From Candidatus Sulfotelmatobacter sp. (GTDB lineage Bacteria > Acidobacteriota > Terriglobia > Terriglobales > Acidobacteriaceae), in NCBI GenBank assembly GCA_030041415.1, contig JASHNX010000176.1, forward strand, positions 1 to 64,000: a DNA stretch of 64,000 nucleotides, read 5' to 3'. How positions within the stretch are numbered: the stretch's first letter is position 1; each line of letters opens with the position of its first letter. The notes under the pieces were generated by a model. It was not told the origin of the DNA. It made no database searches and saw only the letters and a list, made by a program, of their open reading frames with translations. The position numbers and the translations under genes were made by a program. Below, piece after piece: positions 23,306 through 32,745 of this stretch.

Positions 23306-24601
23306 TCAGCTCACCCAATCGAGAAACTTGTACCATGCTCCGGCGAATGGCAAAAACCAGGGATTGCCGTTATACATTCCCAGCGGCGCGCCGGGAAATG
23401 GAATACCAATGAAGGGGTTTCCCGGCTTTTCTCCGGCGATCAGCTCGGCCATTTTTTGCCCCTGCCATGTCGCCATTGCAACGCCGTGACCAGCATAGCC
23501 GAGCGCGTAGTAGATACCATCGACCTGACCCGCGTGCGGCATGATGTCAAAAGCAAAATCAAGCGTGCCCCCCCAGACGTAGTCGATCTTCGCGTCAGCC
23601 AGTTGCGGATAAACATCAATCATGCCGCGGCGAAGAATCTCGGCGCTGCGGCGAATGGTCTGATCAGTCTCAGGGAAAAATGCAGCACGGCCTCCAAATA
23701 ATATCCGTCGATCCGGCGTCAGCCGGTAGTAGTAAAGGTAATTTTTCGAGTCATAGATCATGCGGTTGCGCGGGCTGAGTTCGTGGGCGAGTCCTTCCGG
23801 CAGGATTTCGGTTGTGATAATGAACGATCCAATGGGGATGATTTTCATTCGCAAGGCGGGGGTTGCTTCGCCGGTGTAGCCGCTGGTGCCGACAAAGACA
23901 TCACGGGCCCAGAGCTCTCCGCGCGATGTAATAAGCTTCCATCCCGCATCACCTTGATGCGATCCGTGCTGGAGCGATTCGACGCGAGTGTGCTCGAAGA
24001 TTTCGGCTCCGGCTTTGATAGCGGCGCGGCCGAGACCCGCCACGTAACGCGCAGGGTTCAGCCCCGCGCTCATTTCATCGACCATTCCACCGTAATAAAT
24101 CCCGGAGCCAATTTCGGCGCACAAGTCATTTTTCTGCACGACGCGGAGTTGATGGTCGAACTCGCGGCTGATCACTTCCGCCTGGCGTGCGTAATCGTCG
24201 AAATGCTTCTGCTTGCAGGCGACTTCGAGGTGGCCACAGCGCGAGAAATCGCAGTCGATGGTTTCTTCGCGAATAATTCGTTCGACGCAATCGATGGTTT
24301 CTAAAGAAGCCGCGTACATGCGGCGCGTGAGCTCTCGGCCATACATAGAAATCAGCTTATTGACCCCCAGCTTCATGCCCGTGAGCACCATGCCGCCGTT
24401 GCGCGAACTGGCGCCCCAGCCGATCGTTTCGCTTTCGAGAACAGCGACTTTTGCGCCGCGCTTCGCGAGCGTGCGCGCAGCGGAAAGCCCGGTAAATCCT
24501 GCGCCGATGACGGCGACATCCATGCGGCTTGGGAGCGGACGGGCTTGTGGTTTGGGGAATTCTGCGGTGGTGAGCCAGTAGTTGTGTTCGAATAGTTCCA
24601 T
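23306..24601 (-). CDS. FAD-dependent amine/amino-acid oxidase (DadA/PuuB-like)
   Basis: This 431-residue flavoprotein of the DAO family has the Rossmann FAD motif VIGAGFTGLSAA (GxGxxG at about 32-37), ESETIGWGASSRNGGM (the conserved G-A-S-x-R-N-G-G loop) and a C-terminal GYAGHGVAMA segment. It would oxidise a secondary or primary amine or D-amino acid, with closest resemblance to gamma-glutamylputrescine oxidase-type enzymes. The frame extends upstream to a GTG at 24661, but that extension is encoded by a REP-like repeat. The ATG at 24601 gives the family's usual HNYWL opening. It follows a second DAO-family gene on the same strand by about 110 nt. Confidence 0.87.
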   Translation of the reverse strand: MELFEHNYWLTTAEFPKPQARPLPSRMDVAVIGAGFTGLSAARTLAKRGAKVAVLESETIGWGASSRNGGMVLTGMKLGVNKLISMYGRELTRRMYAASLETIDCVERIIREETIDCDFSRCGHLEVACKQKHFDDYARQAEVISREFDHQLRVVQKNDLCAEIGSGIYYGGMVDEMSAGLNPARYVAGLGRAAIKAGAEIFEHTRVESLQHGSHQGDAGWKLITSRGELWARDVFVGTSGYTGEATPALRMKIIPIGSFIITTEILPEGLAHELSPRNRMIYDSKNYLYYYRLTPDRRILFGGRAAFFPETDQTIRRSAEILRRGMIDVYPQLADAKIDYVWGGTLDFAFDIMPHAGQVDGIYYALGYAGHGVAMATWQGQKMAELIAGEKPGNPFIGIPFPGAPLGMYNGNPWFLPFAGAWYKFLDWVS

Positions 24602-24613
24602 TCGACGTGGCAC

Positions 24614-24674
24614 AGTTTTAGGATCTCTGGAAAGAAGGTTCCTCACCTGCGCTTTGCGCACATTCGGAATGACA
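24614..24674. repeat. REP-like interspersed repeat, second copy
   Basis: The minus strand reads GATGTCATTCCGAATGTGCG, then GCGCAAAGCGC (a GCGC-TTT-GCGC hairpin on the plus strand), then GTGAGGAACCTTCTTTCC. It shares the GTCATYCYGA head, GCGC-rich palindromic core and GGAACCTTCTTT-like tail with the copy at 13690-13755. It fills the gap between the two FAD oxidase genes and creates a spurious N-terminal extension on the downstream one. Confidence 0.6.
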
Positions 24675-24712
24675 TCAACTTATCAACATTTAACGTGTCA
24701 CAACTTGCCGTG

Positions 24713-25870
24713 TCACAGCACTGCCGTTTCGTGAATCAGCCGGTTCTCGGCGAACCGCGACAGACTTAATAACGACACATCGATCAGGTCCGTTTTGCCG
24801 GTGAGAATCAGATCGCTGAGAATCTTTCCGGTGGCCGGAGCGTGCATCACGCCATGTCCGCTGAAACCGTTGGCCAGGAAGAAGCCTGGCACACCCGGTG
24901 CTTCGCCGAGAATCGGATGGTGATCGGGCGTCATTTCGTAGAGGCCAGCCCAGGCACGTTTTGGATTCACCGGAAGATTGGCAAAACACGGCACTCGGTC
25001 GGCCGCGCGCGTCAGAATCTTCTCGATAAAGCCCGGATCGAAATCGGTTTTGAATCCCGGCGTTTCTTCTGGATCGTTCCAGGCGAGAAGAAATCCGCGC
25101 GCCTCGGGACGGAAGTGAAAGCCGTTTGACATGTCGATGATCATGGGCGCGGTGTGGGGAAATTCGTCAAAGGGCTCGCTCGGCACCAGCATGCGGCGAA
25201 GAGGTTCCACCGGAAGGTCGATTCCGACGAATCCGGCTACTTCCGCTGCCCATGCCCCAGCACAATTCACCAATCTGCGGGTCGAGATTGTTCCCCGCGC
25301 CGTCTCGATAGAAGTGATTCCAGCGGCATCTCGCTTGATGCCCGTCACAGGGGTGTGCTTCCACAGCGTGGCGCCGCGATCGGTTGCGGCTGCTGTGAAT
25401 CCATTCATAGCGCTGTAGGGATCGACGAAGCCGTCGGTTGAGCAGAAACTTCCGCCGATGATGTCATCGCCGCGCAACTGCGGAAACATGCGAGCGATCT
25501 CATCCCCAGCAAGTAACCCGACATTTTTCAGACCAAGCCGTACTTGCTCCGCATAGTTTGTCTGCAAATATGCCAACTGCTTCTCATTCGTCGCACAAAA
25601 CAGATAGCCTTGCGGGCGATAATCGCAAGGGCTACCAAGCCGTTCTTCGAAGCTGGCATAGAACGGAATTGAATACAGCGACATCTGGATGCTGACGGGG
25701 GTCGAAAACTGGGCGCGCACGCCACCCATGCTTTTGCCCGTAGAACCCTTGCCCTGAGCTGACTCGCGTTCGATAACCAGCACGTTGCGGCAGCCCTGCG
25801 CCGTCAGATGATAGGCAATGCTGGAGCCGACGATTCCTGCGCCGATGATCACAACATCCGCGGTTTGCAT
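24713..25870 (-). CDS. FAD-dependent amine oxidase (sarcosine oxidase/proline dehydrogenase-like)
   Basis: This 385-residue DAO-family flavoprotein has VVIIGAGIVGSSIAYHL at the N-terminus for FAD binding, GSTGKSMGGVRAQFS as the second flavin loop, and ANGFSGHGVMHAPATG near the C-terminus, typical of SoxB, glycine oxidase and L-proline dehydrogenase subunits. It would convert an N-alkyl or cyclic amino acid to an imine. No partner alpha/gamma subunits are nearby, so it may act alone. It is the first gene of a tandem pair with the oxidase at 23306, which is diverged and not a recent duplicate. A 215-nt divergent region separates it from the TonB fusion gene. Confidence 0.88.
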   Translation of the reverse strand: MQTADVVIIGAGIVGSSIAYHLTAQGCRNVLVIERESAQGKGSTGKSMGGVRAQFSTPVSIQMSLYSIPFYASFEERLGSPCDYRPQGYLFCATNEKQLAYLQTNYAEQVRLGLKNVGLLAGDEIARMFPQLRGDDIIGGSFCSTDGFVDPYSAMNGFTAAATDRGATLWKHTPVTGIKRDAAGITSIETARGTISTRRLVNCAGAWAAEVAGFVGIDLPVEPLRRMLVPSEPFDEFPHTAPMIIDMSNGFHFRPEARGFLLAWNDPEETPGFKTDFDPGFIEKILTRAADRVPCFANLPVNPKRAWAGLYEMTPDHHPILGEAPGVPGFFLANGFSGHGVMHAPATGKILSDLILTGKTDLIDVSLLSLSRFAENRLIHETAVL

Positions 25871-26085
25871 AGCGTGAGACGATCCGGTTGAGCCGATTCA
25901 GAATGAAATCAGCATTCTAGCGCAGCCGGCGGGAAGAATTTTCCCGGCTGTGTCTCTCGAAACTTGCCCGCGCCAGCGTCGCTCGAAGTACATGTACCGT
26001 TGATTTATTGGACTGTTCCAAGACCCGATCCGGCCTCAACCTCAGTAACTTGCCGGGGTTACTGTACCTGCCTAGTCTGAGCAGT
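25871..26085. promoter_or_regulatory. Divergent control region with palindromes
   Basis: The spacer holds GTACATGTAC (25988-25997, a perfect 10-bp palindrome), TTGGA-CTGT-TCCAA (about 26009-26022) and a GC-rich hairpin GCCGGCGGGAA...TTCCCGGC (about 25927-25950). These are candidate operators between the FAD oxidase and the receiver-TonB gene. No clear -35/-10 pair was found. Confidence 0.3.
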
Positions 26086-28134
26086 ATGTCTTTGCGTTGT
26101 CTTTTATTCTCGTCCGACGAGGCGACGGCTGCGCCGATAAGACAAGTCCTGACTGAATTGGACGTTGAAGCGGAACACTGCTCGAATCCGGTCGATGCAG
26201 TTGAGCGGGTTACTACACAATCATTTCAGATTGTTATCACCGACTGGAAAGACCAGCCGGAAGCGGCATTCCTGCTCAAGACCGCCCGCGATCTGAAGGC
26301 TGCAGCACGGCCGTTAACGCTGGCGATCGTCAACGAAGAAAGTCGGGCTCATGCTCTGCAGGCGGGAGCCAATTCGGTCCTGCTGAAACCGATCCGTCCC
26401 GAACAGGTTCGGGACACGATGAGCACGGCCCGCCAGCTCTTGCAGTCGAAATCTCAGACTGCTGCGCCCGCCGCGACGCGGATGACATGGCAGAGCGGAA
26501 GTCCGGACTCCGTCGGAGCGAGCGCCGCGGCGGCTGCACCTGCCCCCGCTTTCACCGCTCCGGCTTCGGAAAAACTTCGCGCGGGGGAATTTTTGCAGTC
26601 GACCGGTCCTGCGCCTGGATCGCAATTTGATACCGAGAGCGAAGTGCGGGATGCGATGGAAGCTTCTTACTCACCCGTCGACTCGCTAACCGAACTAGAG
26701 CCCATGGCAGCTGCCGTGCAGGAAGCTCCCGAACCAAAACCCGAGCCCAAGGAAGCCCTGACCGGATGGGCGGCGTTGCAAGCTCGGCTCACGAAATCGG
26801 CTCCGGCGCCCCTCAAAGAAACCCCGGCGAAAAGCGACTTGGTCTCGTATGACGATTCATCGTCTCCTACGCAAACGGGAGCAGGGAGCGAATTTGAAAG
26901 TTTTCCGGCTCAGCCGAGGAGGCAGCCGGACATCGCTACAGTTGTACCAAGAGAAGAACCAGCGGTGTCGCAACCATCAGGCGACGTGGAAGTGGAAGAT
27001 GATGAAGAGGCCGAGATAACGGCGCCGCGGCCAGCACCGAAGTACGGCAAGGTTTTCGTTTTAGGGCTTGCTTTCGTGGTCGTGTTGGTAGCGGCCTTGC
27101 CACAAACGCGAGAAAAGCTGAGGGGAGTGTCTCGGACTGGCGCCCGCGCGGCGCTGAGATGGCTGAATCCGCCGCCTGCGCCCATGCCGCAGACGGTGAC
27201 GCAACACGACAGCTTCGGGCAACCCGACGATGAGTACAAGCTGCCGGCTGCTGCAAATATTCCGGATTCGACAACCGACCCTTCGAAGATAGAAGTGGTA
27301 CCGGTGGTTGATCCGACTGCGAAGCAGGATAAGTCCGCAGCTGCCAGCGCGGGACAGTCGCAAGGACTGGCGGGAGGAAATGCAACGCAGCCGACATCTG
27401 GCGACCAACCGGCTGCCCCGACTGGACAACCCTCTTCTCCCGATCAAAATGCAGCAACAACAAGCGCAGCAAACCCGCAGAATCCGCCAGTTGCCGCTCC
27501 TGGCAACAACGTAGTAACCGGCGCAATGGGGAATACTGCGACTAGTTCAGGAGCGACGACTCCGGCCAACGTGAGCAGCGGAGCGCCACCTCAGACTGCC
27601 TCAGGCCCATCAGCCTCACCTCAGGTGGCTTCGCCGCCGCCCGTGGCGGCAACGCAACCGCCGCCGGTGGACCCCGTTCAAGTTCAAGTCCACCCAGGCT
27701 CCCCGGCCATCCATAACAGTCCCACGCCACAGGTTTCTGCATCGCAATTGGCCGGCATTCCCTCCAGCCTGAAGTCTCAAGTGGGGTCAACAACACCAGA
27801 GATGAGCGGCGTGAAACGCGATGACTCAGCTACGTCTTCGATTGAGCCAGTAACTTTGCCTGAGTCGGGCGTGCGTGCGCTGCTGGCTCAAGGGCCTGAT
27901 CCGGAATATCCTGAGACAGCAAAGGCGAGCGGGCAGCAAGGGAGCGTGGTTTTACAGGTGCTCATCGGAGCCGATGGTACGGTAGAGGATGCGAAGTTTA
28001 TGCAGGGATCGTTCGTTTTTGCGCGTGCCGCGATCGATGCGGTAAAACAGTGGCGATTCAAGCCTTATTCCATTAACGGGCGAGCGGTCTCGGTGCAAAG
28101 CACGATTACGCTGAATTTCAAACCCCCGGCCTAA
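26086..28134 (+). CDS. Receiver domain-transmembrane-TonB fusion protein
   Basis: This is a 682-residue protein of unusual architecture. Residues 1-122 resemble a response-regulator receiver: acidic pair D11/E12, phospho-acceptor D53 (VITDWK) and lysine K101 (LLKPI). The conserved Ser/Thr of strand 4 is replaced (AIVNE). A low-complexity cytoplasmic linker (about 123-318) leads to one helix at 321-340, then a long Pro/Ala/Gln/Ser-rich periplasmic linker. Residues about 600-682 form a TonB C-terminal domain (YPETAKASGQQGSVVLQVLI, WRFKPY). TonB couples the proton-motive force to outer-membrane receptors through ExbB/ExbD, which are absent here. The N-terminal domain suggests cytoplasmic control of TonB. 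ATG 26086 is chosen; a TTG 78 nt upstream is possible but adds non-receiver sequence. Confidence 0.88.
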   Translation: MSLRCLLFSSDEATAAPIRQVLTELDVEAEHCSNPVDAVERVTTQSFQIVITDWKDQPEAAFLLKTARDLKAAARPLTLAIVNEESRAHALQAGANSVLLKPIRPEQVRDTMSTARQLLQSKSQTAAPAATRMTWQSGSPDSVGASAAAAAPAPAFTAPASEKLRAGEFLQSTGPAPGSQFDTESEVRDAMEASYSPVDSLTELEPMAAAVQEAPEPKPEPKEALTGWAALQARLTKSAPAPLKETPAKSDLVSYDDSSSPTQTGAGSEFESFPAQPRRQPDIATVVPREEPAVSQPSGDVEVEDDEEAEITAPRPAPKYGKVFVLGLAFVVVLVAALPQTREKLRGVSRTGARAALRWLNPPPAPMPQTVTQHDSFGQPDDEYKLPAAANIPDSTTDPSKIEVVPVVDPTAKQDKSAAASAGQSQGLAGGNATQPTSGDQPAAPTGQPSSPDQNAATTSAANPQNPPVAAPGNNVVTGAMGNTATSSGATTPANVSSGAPPQTASGPSASPQVASPPPVAATQPPPVDPVQVQVHPGSPAIHNSPTPQVSASQLAGIPSSLKSQVGSTTPEMSGVKRDDSATSSIEPVTLPESGVRALLAQGPDPEYPETAKASGQQGSVVLQVLIGADGTVEDAKFMQGSFVFARAAIDAVKQWRFKPYSINGRAVSVQSTITLNFKPPA

Positions 28135-28298: not shown

Positions 28299-29519
28299 AT
28301 GTCCATGAAAATTAAAGCTGCGGTTCTGGTTTCGTCATTCGCTGTGCTGTTATTCGTCGTGGTTGGATCACTAGGCGGGGTTCACGCCTCTTCGAGTGAT
28401 GGCGCCTACCAGCAGATGCAGGTCTATAGCGAAGTACTGTCGCGCGTACAAAACGAGTACGTAGTCGATCCCGATATCCCCAAGGTTACAAACGGAGCAT
28501 TGCACGGGCTGCTCGAGTCGCTGGACCCGAACTCAAGCTATATGACGCCTGACGCGTACAAGGAATATAAGGCGCACAAGGCGGAAGGCCGGGGCGAGAT
28601 CGGAGCGACCATCTCCAAGCGCTTTGGATATGCCGACGTAGTCTCTGTATTGCCGGGCTCTCCCGCCGATAAGGCGGGCATCGAAGATACGGACATCTTC
28701 GAATCGATCGAGGGCAAAAGCACGCGCGACATGTCGCTTCCCGAGATTCGCGACCTGCTGGCTGGACCTGTTGGATCGACTGTGAACCTGTCGGTTGTGC
28801 GGGCGCGCCGGGCCGAGCCGGAAAAGATGTCGATCGCGCGGGCGGTTGTTAGTATTCCGGCGGTTTCGGACAAGATGTTGGAGGATGGCGTGGGTTATAT
28901 CAAAGCCGACGCACTGGACAAGGGCAAGGCTGACGAGATCGCGGCCAAGATCAAATCGCTCGAAAAACAAGGCGCGAAGAGGCTGGTTCTCGATCTGCGG
29001 AACACTTCTGACGGAGAGGAAAGTGAAGGCATCGCTGTAGCTAATCTTTTTCTAAATCATGGCACGATTACCTATCTTCAGGGCCAGAAGTATCCACGCG
29101 AGGCTCATAATGCCGACCCGGCCAAGGCCGTTACATCGCTTCCGGTAGCGGTGCTGGTTAACAAGGGAACGGCGGGACCGGCGGAGATTGTGGCGGCGGC
29201 GCTACTGGAAAATGCCCGCGGAGATGTGGTGGGCGATAAGACTTTCGGAGCGGGATCGGTACAGAAGACGATCGATCTGCCGGATGGTGGGGCGCTGATT
29301 TTGTCGGTCGCAAAATACTATTCGCCCAGCGGTAAAGCCATCCAGGACGTTGCCGTGACTCCTAATGTCATGGTGGCGGACGTCACGGATAACATCATCA
29401 CTGACGACGACGATGACGCTACACCATCGGCCACTGAAGAACCAGAAAGCAAGCCCAAGAATACTCCTGACGATCAGTTGCAGAAGGCGATCGAGGTATT
29501 GAAAAGTCGGGCAAGCTAA
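28299..29519 (+). CDS. S41/C-terminal processing peptidase homologue lacking the catalytic Ser-Lys dyad
   Basis: This 406-residue protein has an N-terminal signal anchor (VLVSSFAVLLFVVVGSLGG), a CtpA-like N-terminal helical domain (YVVDPDIPKVTNGALHGLLESLDPNSSY), a PDZ domain (about 95-180) and a tail-specific protease domain. Where active S41 enzymes read GTASASE, this protein reads KGTAGPAE: Gly293 replaces the nucleophile Ser. Where they read TFGKG, it reads TFGAG: Ala318 replaces the general-base Lys. The 25-residue spacing between the two sites is retained. It is therefore predicted to be a catalytically dead binding or scaffold protein in the periplasm. It lies just upstream of a class A PBP, with a strong terminator between. 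Confidence 0.9.
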   Translation: MSMKIKAAVLVSSFAVLLFVVVGSLGGVHASSSDGAYQQMQVYSEVLSRVQNEYVVDPDIPKVTNGALHGLLESLDPNSSYMTPDAYKEYKAHKAEGRGEIGATISKRFGYADVVSVLPGSPADKAGIEDTDIFESIEGKSTRDMSLPEIRDLLAGPVGSTVNLSVVRARRAEPEKMSIARAVVSIPAVSDKMLEDGVGYIKADALDKGKADEIAAKIKSLEKQGAKRLVLDLRNTSDGEESEGIAVANLFLNHGTITYLQGQKYPREAHNADPAKAVTSLPVAVLVNKGTAGPAEIVAAALLENARGDVVGDKTFGAGSVQKTIDLPDGGALILSVAKYYSPSGKAIQDVAVTPNVMVADVTDNIITDDDDDATPSATEEPESKPKNTPDDQLQKAIEVLKSRAS

Positions 29520-29665: not shown

Positions 29666-31894
29666 ATGAAGTCGGTTGCTGAGGACCTTCCACCGATCGA
29701 TATTGCCGGAGGAAAGCTTGTGGGCCGTTTGCTTGTGGGCCTGCTGCTGTTCATCTCCGCGCTGGTTGGAGCAACGGCCGGACTTTTGCTGGTCTACACC
29801 ACAGACCTGCCGCAAGTGGAGGCTCTCGAAGCATACCGCCCGAGTTCGATCACCGAGTTATACGACGATCATGGGCGGGTGATTGGTTCCTTCGCGCTGC
29901 AACGGCGTGTAGTCGCCGGCTACGATGATTTTCCTCCGGTTCTGCGCGATGCGTTGATTTCGATTGAAGACAAGGATTTCTATCGCCATTCAGGCATCAA
30001 TTTCTGGCGAATCGCCGGCGCGGCTTACAGGGACATCAGATCCGGCGGCAGGGTTCAGGGTGCGTCGACGCTCACCATGCAACTAGCAAGAAACCTGTTT
30101 CTGTCGCCTGATCGCTCGTTTCATCGCAAAGTGGAAGAGGCGCTGCTTGCGATCCAGATTGAGCGCCGTTTCACCAAACCGCAGATTTTCACGCTTTATG
30201 CCAATCAGATTTTCCTGGGCCACGGAGTATACGGTTTCGAGTCGGCTTCGGAGTTTTATTTCAGCAAGGTGGCACGCCAGTTGACGCTGCCGGAAGCTGC
30301 ACTGCTTGCGGGTTTGCCGAAGGGTCCGGGCGTATATTCGCCGATTAACCATCCAGAGCGGGCGCTGAAGCGACGGAATCTGGTGATCGATGCAATGCTT
30401 GAGGACGGAAAAATCACTTCGGCTCAGGCCGAAACTGCCCGTTCTACGCCGCTCGTGCTGAATCTGCAGCACGACCCGAATTCGCTAGCCCCCTACTTCG
30501 TAGAGGAAATACGGCGATATCTGGAGACGAAGTACGGGGCGGATCAGGTGCACGAGGGCGGCCTGAAGGTCTATACGTCGCTGGACATGGATCTGCAAAA
30601 GGCTGCGAACCGGGCCGTGTTGGACGGACTGGCCACATATGAACGCAGACACGGATGGAAAGGACATCTTGAGAACATCACCACGGAAGGAATTCTAATC
30701 GATAAATATCAGCATCCGGATTGGGAGAATCAGCCAGAAGTCAACGAATATGTTCACGCCGTGGTCACTTCTGCAGGCGTGGGAATTGCAACGGTGAAGT
30801 TCGGACAATATCTTGCGGCGATTGGCCAGGCGGACGTAGCCTGGACGCAAAAGAAGATTCCCGAACTCCTGCGACCGGGCGATATCTGCTATGTCAAGAT
30901 TCTGGCCCTGAATGCGAACGGCGCCGCACGTGTGACCCTCGAGCAGGATTCTGGAACGCAAGGCTCCCTGGTTGCCATCGACAATGCGACCGGCGCAATC
31001 AAAGCTTTGGTTGGAGGTAGAGATTTCAGCGAATCGAAATTCGATCGGGCAACACAGGCGTTGCGACAGGTTGGATCCTCCTTCAAGCCGTATGTGTACA
31101 CGGCCGTGATTGACCGCGGGGCAAGTCCGGACGATACCATCCTCGATGAGCCGGTGACTTTCGAAACCGAGTCGGGGCCGTATTCGCCGCACAATTACGA
31201 TGAAAAATATGAAGGCGTGATTTCTCTGCGCCGGGCTCTGGCGCAATCTCGCAATATTCCTGCTCTCAAACTCGCCGACAAGGTTGGCATCAAGACGGTC
31301 ATCGACTACGCTGAACGCTTCGGAATTACCTCGCGCATGCCACCCTATTTGCCGGTTGCGCTGGGTTCGGCGGAAATCACGCTGGTGGAGCAGACTTCCG
31401 CTTACAGCGTTTTTCCCAACGATGGTGTGCGGGTGACTCCCCGTTACATCACCAAGGTCACAGATTATGAGGGGCGCGTTCTGGAGGAGGATTATCCGGA
31501 AGTGAAGGACGTGGTCAGCGAGCGTACGGCCCGAATCATGACCGCGATGTTGCGCGAAGTAGTACTGCATGGAACCGGAATTGCGGCGTCGAAGCTGGCC
31601 TTCCCGGTCGCGGGGAAAACCGGCACGACCAACGATTTCACAGACGCGTGGTTTGTGGGATTTTCGCCCACTATGACTTGCGGCGTGTGGATCGGATTCG
31701 ACGAGAAAAAATCCTTGGGGGATAAGGAAACCGGTGCCCGCGCCGCTCTGCCGATCTGGATGAATTTTATGACTGTAGCCATGGCGGGCAAAGATCCGGG
31801 GCAGTTCCAAGCAGCGCCGATTGTTCCCAGCACGAACTTCGCGCAAAAACTGGACACACCCGATGCGGCTACTGGAGGCGATGAAACACAGTAG
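29666..31894 (+). CDS. Class A penicillin-binding protein (PBP1A family)
   Basis: This 742-residue bifunctional peptidoglycan synthase has an N-terminal helix (about 22-42). The GT51 glycosyltransferase domain has catalytic glutamate in IEDKDFYRH, plus QGASTLTMQLARN and the RKVEEALLAIQIE motif. The transpeptidase domain has SSFK (active Ser about 471), SRN (about 527) and KTGTTNDF (about 650). It polymerises and crosslinks glycan in the periplasm. It follows a terminator, so it has its own promoter somewhere in 29573-29665, where none is obvious. The PASTA gene follows on the same strand after about 60 nt. Confidence 0.95.
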   Translation: MKSVAEDLPPIDIAGGKLVGRLLVGLLLFISALVGATAGLLLVYTTDLPQVEALEAYRPSSITELYDDHGRVIGSFALQRRVVAGYDDFPPVLRDALISIEDKDFYRHSGINFWRIAGAAYRDIRSGGRVQGASTLTMQLARNLFLSPDRSFHRKVEEALLAIQIERRFTKPQIFTLYANQIFLGHGVYGFESASEFYFSKVARQLTLPEAALLAGLPKGPGVYSPINHPERALKRRNLVIDAMLEDGKITSAQAETARSTPLVLNLQHDPNSLAPYFVEEIRRYLETKYGADQVHEGGLKVYTSLDMDLQKAANRAVLDGLATYERRHGWKGHLENITTEGILIDKYQHPDWENQPEVNEYVHAVVTSAGVGIATVKFGQYLAAIGQADVAWTQKKIPELLRPGDICYVKILALNANGAARVTLEQDSGTQGSLVAIDNATGAIKALVGGRDFSESKFDRATQALRQVGSSFKPYVYTAVIDRGASPDDTILDEPVTFETESGPYSPHNYDEKYEGVISLRRALAQSRNIPALKLADKVGIKTVIDYAERFGITSRMPPYLPVALGSAEITLVEQTSAYSVFPNDGVRVTPRYITKVTDYEGRVLEEDYPEVKDVVSERTARIMTAMLREVVLHGTGIAASKLAFPVAGKTGTTNDFTDAWFVGFSPTMTCGVWIGFDEKKSLGDKETGARAALPIWMNFMTVAMAGKDPGQFQAAPIVPSTNFAQKLDTPDAATGGDETQ

Positions 31895-31956: not shown

Positions 31957-32745
31957 ATGAAGCCTTTGTTTCGAGTCGTGTTTCTTGCGCTGGCGATGCT
32001 GCTGGTGGCCATGGTCTCGGGTCTCATGGCGATGCGCTTTGCCATTCATGGACAGGAGGTGCAGGTTCCGGGCATCGTGGGCATGACGCCTGGCGAGGCC
32101 GAGCGCACGCTGGCCGGAGTTGGGCTGGAAATGAATGTCGAGCGGCAGTATTACAGTCCGCAGATTCCTGAGGGGAGAATTATGATGCAACTCCCGATGC
32201 CGGGGATCAAGGTTCGGCGGGGGTGGGAAGTGCGCGTCGCCCAAAGTATGGGGCCGCAGCGAGTTTCAATTCCAGATGTAACCGGCGAGAGTGAGCGCGC
32301 GGCGGAAATGAACATCCGGAGGCGCGGCCTGGAGCTGTCGTCGACGGCTGAAATCCAGATGGCTGGAACGCCGCCGGATCAAGTGGTGGCGCAAAGTCCG
32401 CCGGCAAATGCGAGTCAGGTAGCGGCGCCAAGAACGAGTCTTCTGATCAGCGAAGCGGCTACGCCCACAGCGTTCGTGATGCCGAACTTTGTGGGCCAAT
32501 CCCTCGGCGCAGCGACGCGGGCCTTACAGGATGCAGGATTTAAACTTGGAAACGTCACCGTAGCGCCGCCGGTGATTACGGAAGCGCCGGCAGCGACTAC
32601 CCCCGGAACAAACCCCTCACCTCTTGCTGTGCCGGCACCTGTGCCGTCGTCGCAGCCGCTGCCCGCGAGCACCATTGTGGCGCAGACTCCGCCGGCTGGG
32701 CAGAAGATTCTGGCCGGGGCCGTGGTGAACCTCGAGGTGCGATGA
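31957..32745 (+). CDS. Membrane-anchored PASTA-domain protein without kinase
   Basis: This 262-residue protein has an N-terminal helix (FRVVFLALAMLLVAMVSGL) and three PASTA repeats: VQVPGIVGMTPGEAERTLAG (about 36), VSIPDVTGESERAAEMN (about 105) and FVMPNFVGQSLGAATRALQ (about 174). A Pro/Ala/Thr-rich insert interrupts the third. PASTA domains bind muropeptides or beta-lactams and normally sit on PknB-type kinases or PBPs, but here they stand alone. The position directly after a class A PBP suggests a role in localising or regulating that enzyme. It is convergent with rsmB, with only 9 nt between the stops. Confidence 0.9.
   Translation: MKPLFRVVFLALAMLLVAMVSGLMAMRFAIHGQEVQVPGIVGMTPGEAERTLAGVGLEMNVERQYYSPQIPEGRIMMQLPMPGIKVRRGWEVRVAQSMGPQRVSIPDVTGESERAAEMNIRRRGLELSSTAEIQMAGTPPDQVVAQSPPANASQVAAPRTSLLISEAATPTAFVMPNFVGQSLGAATRALQDAGFKLGNVTVAPPVITEAPAATTPGTNPSPLAVPAPVPSSQPLPASTIVAQTPPAGQKILAGAVVNLEVR

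Follow-up and report, generated by a model that had tools for sequence, protein, structure and literature searches.

TonB and TolA arms are usually regarded as driven by the proton-motive force alone. A signaling-type head on such an arm would make regulation of trans-envelope coupling from inside the cell testable, and the question raised here is whether an open reading frame (ORF) of a Candidatus Sulfotelmatobacter genome, lying in a stretch of 64,000 nucleotides (the window), encodes one and how the product may act.

The ORF occupies positions 26086–28134 of the plus strand without interruption and encodes 682 amino acids, in which a pseudo-receiver domain (pREC) is followed by a transmembrane (TM) helix, a long linker and a TonB C-terminal domain (TonB_C). 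Pfam, hydropathy and AlphaFold2 (AF2) confirmed the ORF, coordinates, domain order, helix (placed at residues 321–340 at the time) and TonB C-terminal domain described in a first-pass annotation of this DNA. A longer in-frame TTG start at 26008, 78 bases upstream, was rejected because ortholog alignments start at the ATG. The features of the gene are as follows.

26086..28134, plus strand: pREC-TM-TonB_C protein, 682 amino acids, ATG start; ortholog starts align to the same Met
26086..26451, plus strand: cytoplasmic pseudo-receiver domain, residues 1–122 (Response_reg, AF2, Foldseek, dN/dS)
26110..26115, plus strand: S9-S10, site of the missing acidic pair (D12/D13 of CheY), from the Pfam register and family alignment
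26242..26244, plus strand: D53, phospho-acceptor equivalent, present in 83 of 84 family members
26386..26388, plus strand: K101 of the KP motif, retained in most members
26452..27042, plus strand: cytoplasmic low-complexity linker with the short conserved motifs RAGEFLQ, QFDTES, LTELEPMAAAV and GWAALQARL, disordered in AF2
27043..27099, plus strand: transmembrane helix, residues 320–338, from hydropathy in family A and B members (AF2 helix 321–336)
27100..27321, plus strand: juxtamembrane block on the periplasmic side, conserved within the genus (dN/dS 0.082)
27322..27840, plus strand: Pro/Thr/Ser/Ala-rich periplasmic linker, from the sequence and AF2 model
27898..28122, plus strand: TonB_C domain, residues 605–679 (PF03544, E 6e-20; AF2 high confidence)

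The PF03544 match reaches 71.9 bits against a curated Pfam cut-off of 24.6, and the full-length AF2 model is confident in the receiver and TonB_C domains with disordered linkers between them; a Pfam scan of the protein found no FHA domain. Approximately 319 residues stand ahead of the helix, hence the protein is without the short TonB-type N-terminus. The positive-inside rule is ambiguous for the family of the window gene (family A) because Lys and Arg occur on both sides of the helix, and is clearer for a paralogous family B, which has Lys ahead of it. We infer that the fusion is a single-pass inner-membrane protein with N-in/C-out topology. The juxtamembrane block at 27100–27321 (WLNP..., H.SFGQ..DEYKLP..NIPD.TTDPS.I.V.PV.DPTAK) has no Pfam match; its conservation is strong within the genus and not evident in the kinase-linked relatives described below.

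That an assembly or gene-call error joined two separate genes is refuted: the fusion forms a single frame in dozens of independent MAG contigs, and single-frame copies occur in at least 21 genera. Of 36 same-genus genomes (Candidatus Sulfotelmatobacter type), 35 contain the gene in whole or in part, the remaining one (G005) having the paralog only. In favor of an artefact there are only a few fragmentary copies, which lie at contig ends or have frameshifts. The two halves are thus not separate genes in relatives, a finding that the first-pass annotation had named as a possible refutation, and the fusion stands. Computed against the closest ortholog, dN/dS is 0.043 for the receiver, indicating strong purifying selection, 0.083 for residues 586–682 including TonB_C and 0.17–0.19 for the linkers, the 19-codon helix being too short for such a judgment.

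The receiver assignment was supported by both of the computational checks proposed with the first-pass annotation, a profile search and structure prediction. Response_reg matches the isolated domain with 31.7 bits (E 1.8e-7), above the Pfam cut-off of 30.2, and residues 12–110 of the whole protein with 25.8 bits (E 1.3e-5), just under it. AF2 predicts a complete receiver fold of five strand-helix units with a mean pLDDT of 93.4, and the best Foldseek matches in the PDB are nearly all receivers, among them CheY, 3lte, BqsR and the FrzS pseudo-receiver 2i6f.

The active site is degenerate. In the Pfam register the acidic pair of canonical regulators, the Mg site at the end of strand 1, falls at profile positions 5–6. 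The regulator L217:6640-7320, a canonical one, has its pair at E8-D9, its residue 4 aligning with profile position 1 where the match begins. Since residue 12 of the fusion protein corresponds to profile position 8, the equivalent positions are S9-S10, and D11 is the residue just after the site. The earlier assignment of D11/E12 as the acidic pocket was therefore wrong and is rejected; in a phmmer alignment with CheY, D11 pairs with D13 only through a gap. The site is Cys-Pro in family B and Ser or Cys plus a variable residue in the PilZ-fused relatives. The same annotation was correct that the strand-4 Ser/Thr is replaced (V82; almost every member of each clade has V, A, L or I here). A lack of conservation of D53 and K101 in orthologs, which it had named as a refuting outcome, was not observed: the two residues, at the ends of strands 3 and 5, are conserved at the frequencies listed above, K101 being retained in only four of the eight kinase-linked members of the family alignment. 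The domain is a pseudo-receiver that retains the phospho-Asp and has lost the metal site, and it adds a class of this kind from a phylum with little experimental coverage. Judged from these residues, ordinary Mg-dependent phosphorylation is unlikely because both the acidic pair and the switch Thr are missing, and a receiver without metal-binding residues probably works as a docking switch.

The pseudo-receiver is shared with other proteins. Family B, of the same architecture, occurs in the genus (G000:C333:1499-3271) and combines both halves in a single open frame in 21 of the 79 sampled genera of the host's taxonomic family. In other proteins of the pseudo-receiver family, TonB is replaced by a single PilZ domain or by two of them. 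With a strict-threshold pseudo-receiver profile, matches in a phylum-wide sample were confined to the host's taxonomic family, and a class-wide sample yielded one PilZ protein of another taxonomic family. In the pREC domain tree the TonB-fused copies form one branch (SH-aLRT 93) comprising clades A and B, which adjoins the pREC-PilZ proteins as its nearest relatives; the finer branching order is unsure because the alignment has few columns. The few TonB-less members within this branch resemble contig ends or frameshifted copies. A one-time recruitment of pREC from the PilZ-type family would be the simplest reading of this tree.

The following genes are encoded downstream of the fusion in the window.

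28299..29519, plus strand: PDZ-S41 (CtpA-type) protease, the next gene, order conserved in the genus
29666..31894, plus strand: class A penicillin-binding protein, PBP1A (Transgly and Transpeptidase domains), order usually kept in the genus
31957..32745, plus strand: PASTA protein with a membrane anchor, found in this order in part of the genus

Upstream, a pair of genes resembling FAD-dependent oxidoreductases is encoded on the other strand (23306–25870 of the window) and conserved in much of the genus. No ExbB/ExbD, receptor or kinase gene adjoins the fusion in the host genus, and glt/agl motility genes were not among the conserved neighbors seen. The neighbors of family B genes are MscS and pyruvate dehydrogenase genes, joined in some genomes by a gene for a PEGA-repeat Ser/Thr kinase.

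Relatives in other genera have a different neighborhood. At all eight loci found in five other genera, the clade A gene precedes a membrane histidine kinase gene, and at five of the eight an OmpR-type regulator is called past the kinase. A pREC-PilZ gene lies directly upstream of pREC-TonB in one of these five kinase-linked genera, and a gene for a REC-GGDEF diguanylate cyclase adjoins pREC-TonB in two further genera. A search of the host genome for the relatives' histidine kinase gave matches to the catalytic domain only, none of them full-length. The initial observation that neither ExbB/ExbD nor a kinase lies beside the gene thus holds for this window and fails in the five other genera, where a histidine kinase is adjacent. 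A signaling link of pREC-TonB gains support from these neighbors of relatives, not from the window: the family is phylogenetically close to c-di-GMP effectors and lies beside two-component genes in relatives. The first-pass idea of a TonB protein with a signal input accordingly survives in its cytoplasmic receiver-like domain and signaling neighbors, but not in a phosphorelay acting on a domain whose pocket is lost.

The host genome has 23 TonB_C matches, 18 matches to the Plug domain of TonB-dependent receptors and 28 PilZ matches. A TonB-ExbB-ExbD-ExbD cluster is present at C187, unlinked to the fusion gene (C282). The cluster at C278, considered as a second ExbBD-TonB cluster, was rejected as such; we take it to be a tol-pal cluster of TolQ, TolR, a TolA-like protein, TolB and Pal. 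The ExbB/ExbD, TolQ/TolR and Plug matches indicate that motors and possible receptors are present, unlinked to the fusion gene. A Ser/His pattern is a feature of the TM helix of E. coli TonB. The helix of the fusion is without Ser-x-x-x-His, which is present in TolA and several other TonB_C proteins of the host genome. It is likewise missing from the TM helix of the TonB encoded with ExbB and the two ExbD proteins (G000:C187), and because that exbBD-linked protein does without it, the pattern is not diagnostic of ExbB coupling.

Two further TonB_C fusions were observed in the host genome, a GAF domain-TM-linker-TonB_C protein (L121:2012-3544, minus strand, G000:C147) and a Ser/Thr kinase-TM-TonB_C protein (L130:1473-2801, plus strand, G000:C146; Pkinase E 2.9e-23, TonB_C E 1.6e-8). 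A pREC-PilZ gene lies approximately 9 kb from the GAF-TM-TonB_C gene (L121), an arrangement also suggested in G013:C13.

Among known systems, GltG (PglI) of the Myxococcus xanthus gliding machinery is an FHA-TM-TonB_C protein (PMC3169522) that contacts AglR (PMC3169522, PMC5349195). Like the fusion, it has a cytoplasmic signaling domain, one TM helix, a Pro-rich periplasmic part and a C-terminal PF03544 domain. In contrast, its cytoplasmic domain is FHA rather than a pseudo-receiver, its gene accompanies those of the Glt machinery, and the protein cooperates with the AglRQS motor; no such genes were found next to the fusion. GltJ (AgmX) of M. xanthus, a modular TolA/TonB-like protein, has a single TM helix and a TonBC motif (PMC5349195), as the fusion does, but its cytoplasmic part is different. 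The TonB of ExbB/ExbD systems has the same single TM helix, Pro-rich linker and TonB_C; the fusion differs in its large cytoplasmic domain, which TonB proteins in general do not have (PMC8262864), and in not being beside exbBD. SjdR of Anabaena, a TonB-like protein formerly annotated as TonB, has a cytosolic N-terminus and a structural, non-transport role in septa (PMC8262864). It resembles the fusion in its cytosolic N-terminal extension, TM helix and Pro/Thr/Ser-rich periplasmic part, but its cytosolic part is approximately 65 residues long without a receiver, and its TonB region is truncated.

Atypical receivers (PMC4395418), the FrzS pseudo-receiver (2i6f) among them, combine a receiver fold with a degenerate pocket, as does the fusion, although FrzS lost the phospho-Asp while the fusion family retains Asp53 and lost the acidic pair and Thr. 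Profile and tree both place the acidobacterial pREC-PilZ proteins in the pseudo-receiver family of the fusion, but they are mostly soluble with a PilZ output in place of TM-TonB_C. No receiver-TonB fusion was described in the literature searched, which is weak evidence of absence as subscription papers were mostly outside the search.

By analogy with GltG, we tentatively favor a trans-envelope transducer of the TonB/TolA kind that is steered by protein docking to its pseudo-receiver. The pREC domain would not be phosphorylated by the usual route and would act instead as a docking or dimerization surface, candidate partners being c-di-GMP effectors of the pREC-PilZ type, a histidine kinase, or the regulator of such a kinase. 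Docking would alter where or when the TonB_C head meets an outer-membrane partner, and the arm might move passively or be driven by ExbB/ExbD or TolQ/TolR encoded elsewhere in the genome. The mode of action would be like that of GltG with the pseudo-receiver replacing FHA, and the kinase-linked relatives fit either direction of signal, inside-out or outside-in. In favor of this reading are the receiver fold, the retention of D53 and K101 alongside the lost acidic pair and Thr, the purifying selection on pREC and TonB_C, the near-universal presence in the genus, the single branch next to pREC-PilZ proteins, the signaling neighbors of relatives, the motors, Plug-domain matches and other TonB_C fusions of the host genome, and the GltG precedent. 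Against it speak the host genus neighbors, a CtpA-type protease, PBP1A and a PASTA protein rather than ExbB/ExbD, receptor or kinase genes, and the relatives' kinase having no full-length counterpart in the host genome. It is conceivable, if quite unlikely, that soluble pREC-PilZ proteins pair with membrane pREC-TonB through the shared pseudo-receiver and that c-di-GMP bound by PilZ thereby controls whether, or at which site, the TonB/TolA-type arm engages the outer membrane; if true, this pairing would amount to a switch by which a second messenger controls energy transduction across the envelope. A histidine kinase that phosphorylates D53 and so gates the TonB domain, as first proposed, is highly improbable. 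The conservation of D53 and, mostly, K101 and the linked kinase of relatives are consistent with such a phosphorelay, but the acidic pair has become Ser-Ser or Cys-Pro, nearly every member, the PilZ-fused ones included, has Val or some other residue without a hydroxyl group in place of the Thr, K101 is absent from half of the kinase-linked members, and the linked kinase has a canonical regulator of its own behind it where one is called.

Two other readings were considered. The protein could be an outside-in sensor, following the logic of FecR-type regulation, whose TonB_C head reads an outer-membrane receptor or the wall and whose pREC passes the information on to a cytoplasmic partner, either a histidine kinase or an enzyme of c-di-GMP metabolism. 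The histidine kinase (with the OmpR-type regulator where called) or REC-GGDEF gene adjoining it in relatives agrees with this, as does the conserved juxtamembrane periplasmic block, and the Ser/Thr kinase- and GAF-TM-TonB_C proteins of the host genome suggest that TonB_C can be a periplasmic sensory or anchor module. We consider it rather unlikely, given that no kinase is nearby in the host genus and that pREC has neither an output residue nor an enzyme. A purely structural role is the main non-signaling rival: like SjdR (PMC8262864), the fusion would localize wall or septal enzymes such as PBP1A and the CtpA-type protease, with no part in transport or signaling. Beyond the SjdR precedent, the conserved gene order with the S41 protease and PBP1A argues for such a scaffold; this order, however, is seen only in the host genus, the relatives having signaling genes as neighbors, and family B lies beside other genes (MscS, pyruvate dehydrogenase), making the scaffold an unlikely explanation.

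Family B has two further genes in its company. A shorter second pREC-TonB gene (family C) stands in tandem with the family B gene in several genera (L187, L195-L197, L199). A membrane protein of approximately 220 amino acids with no Pfam match (L058:8292-8957, plus strand) is conserved next to family B, the two genes lying in divergent orientation.
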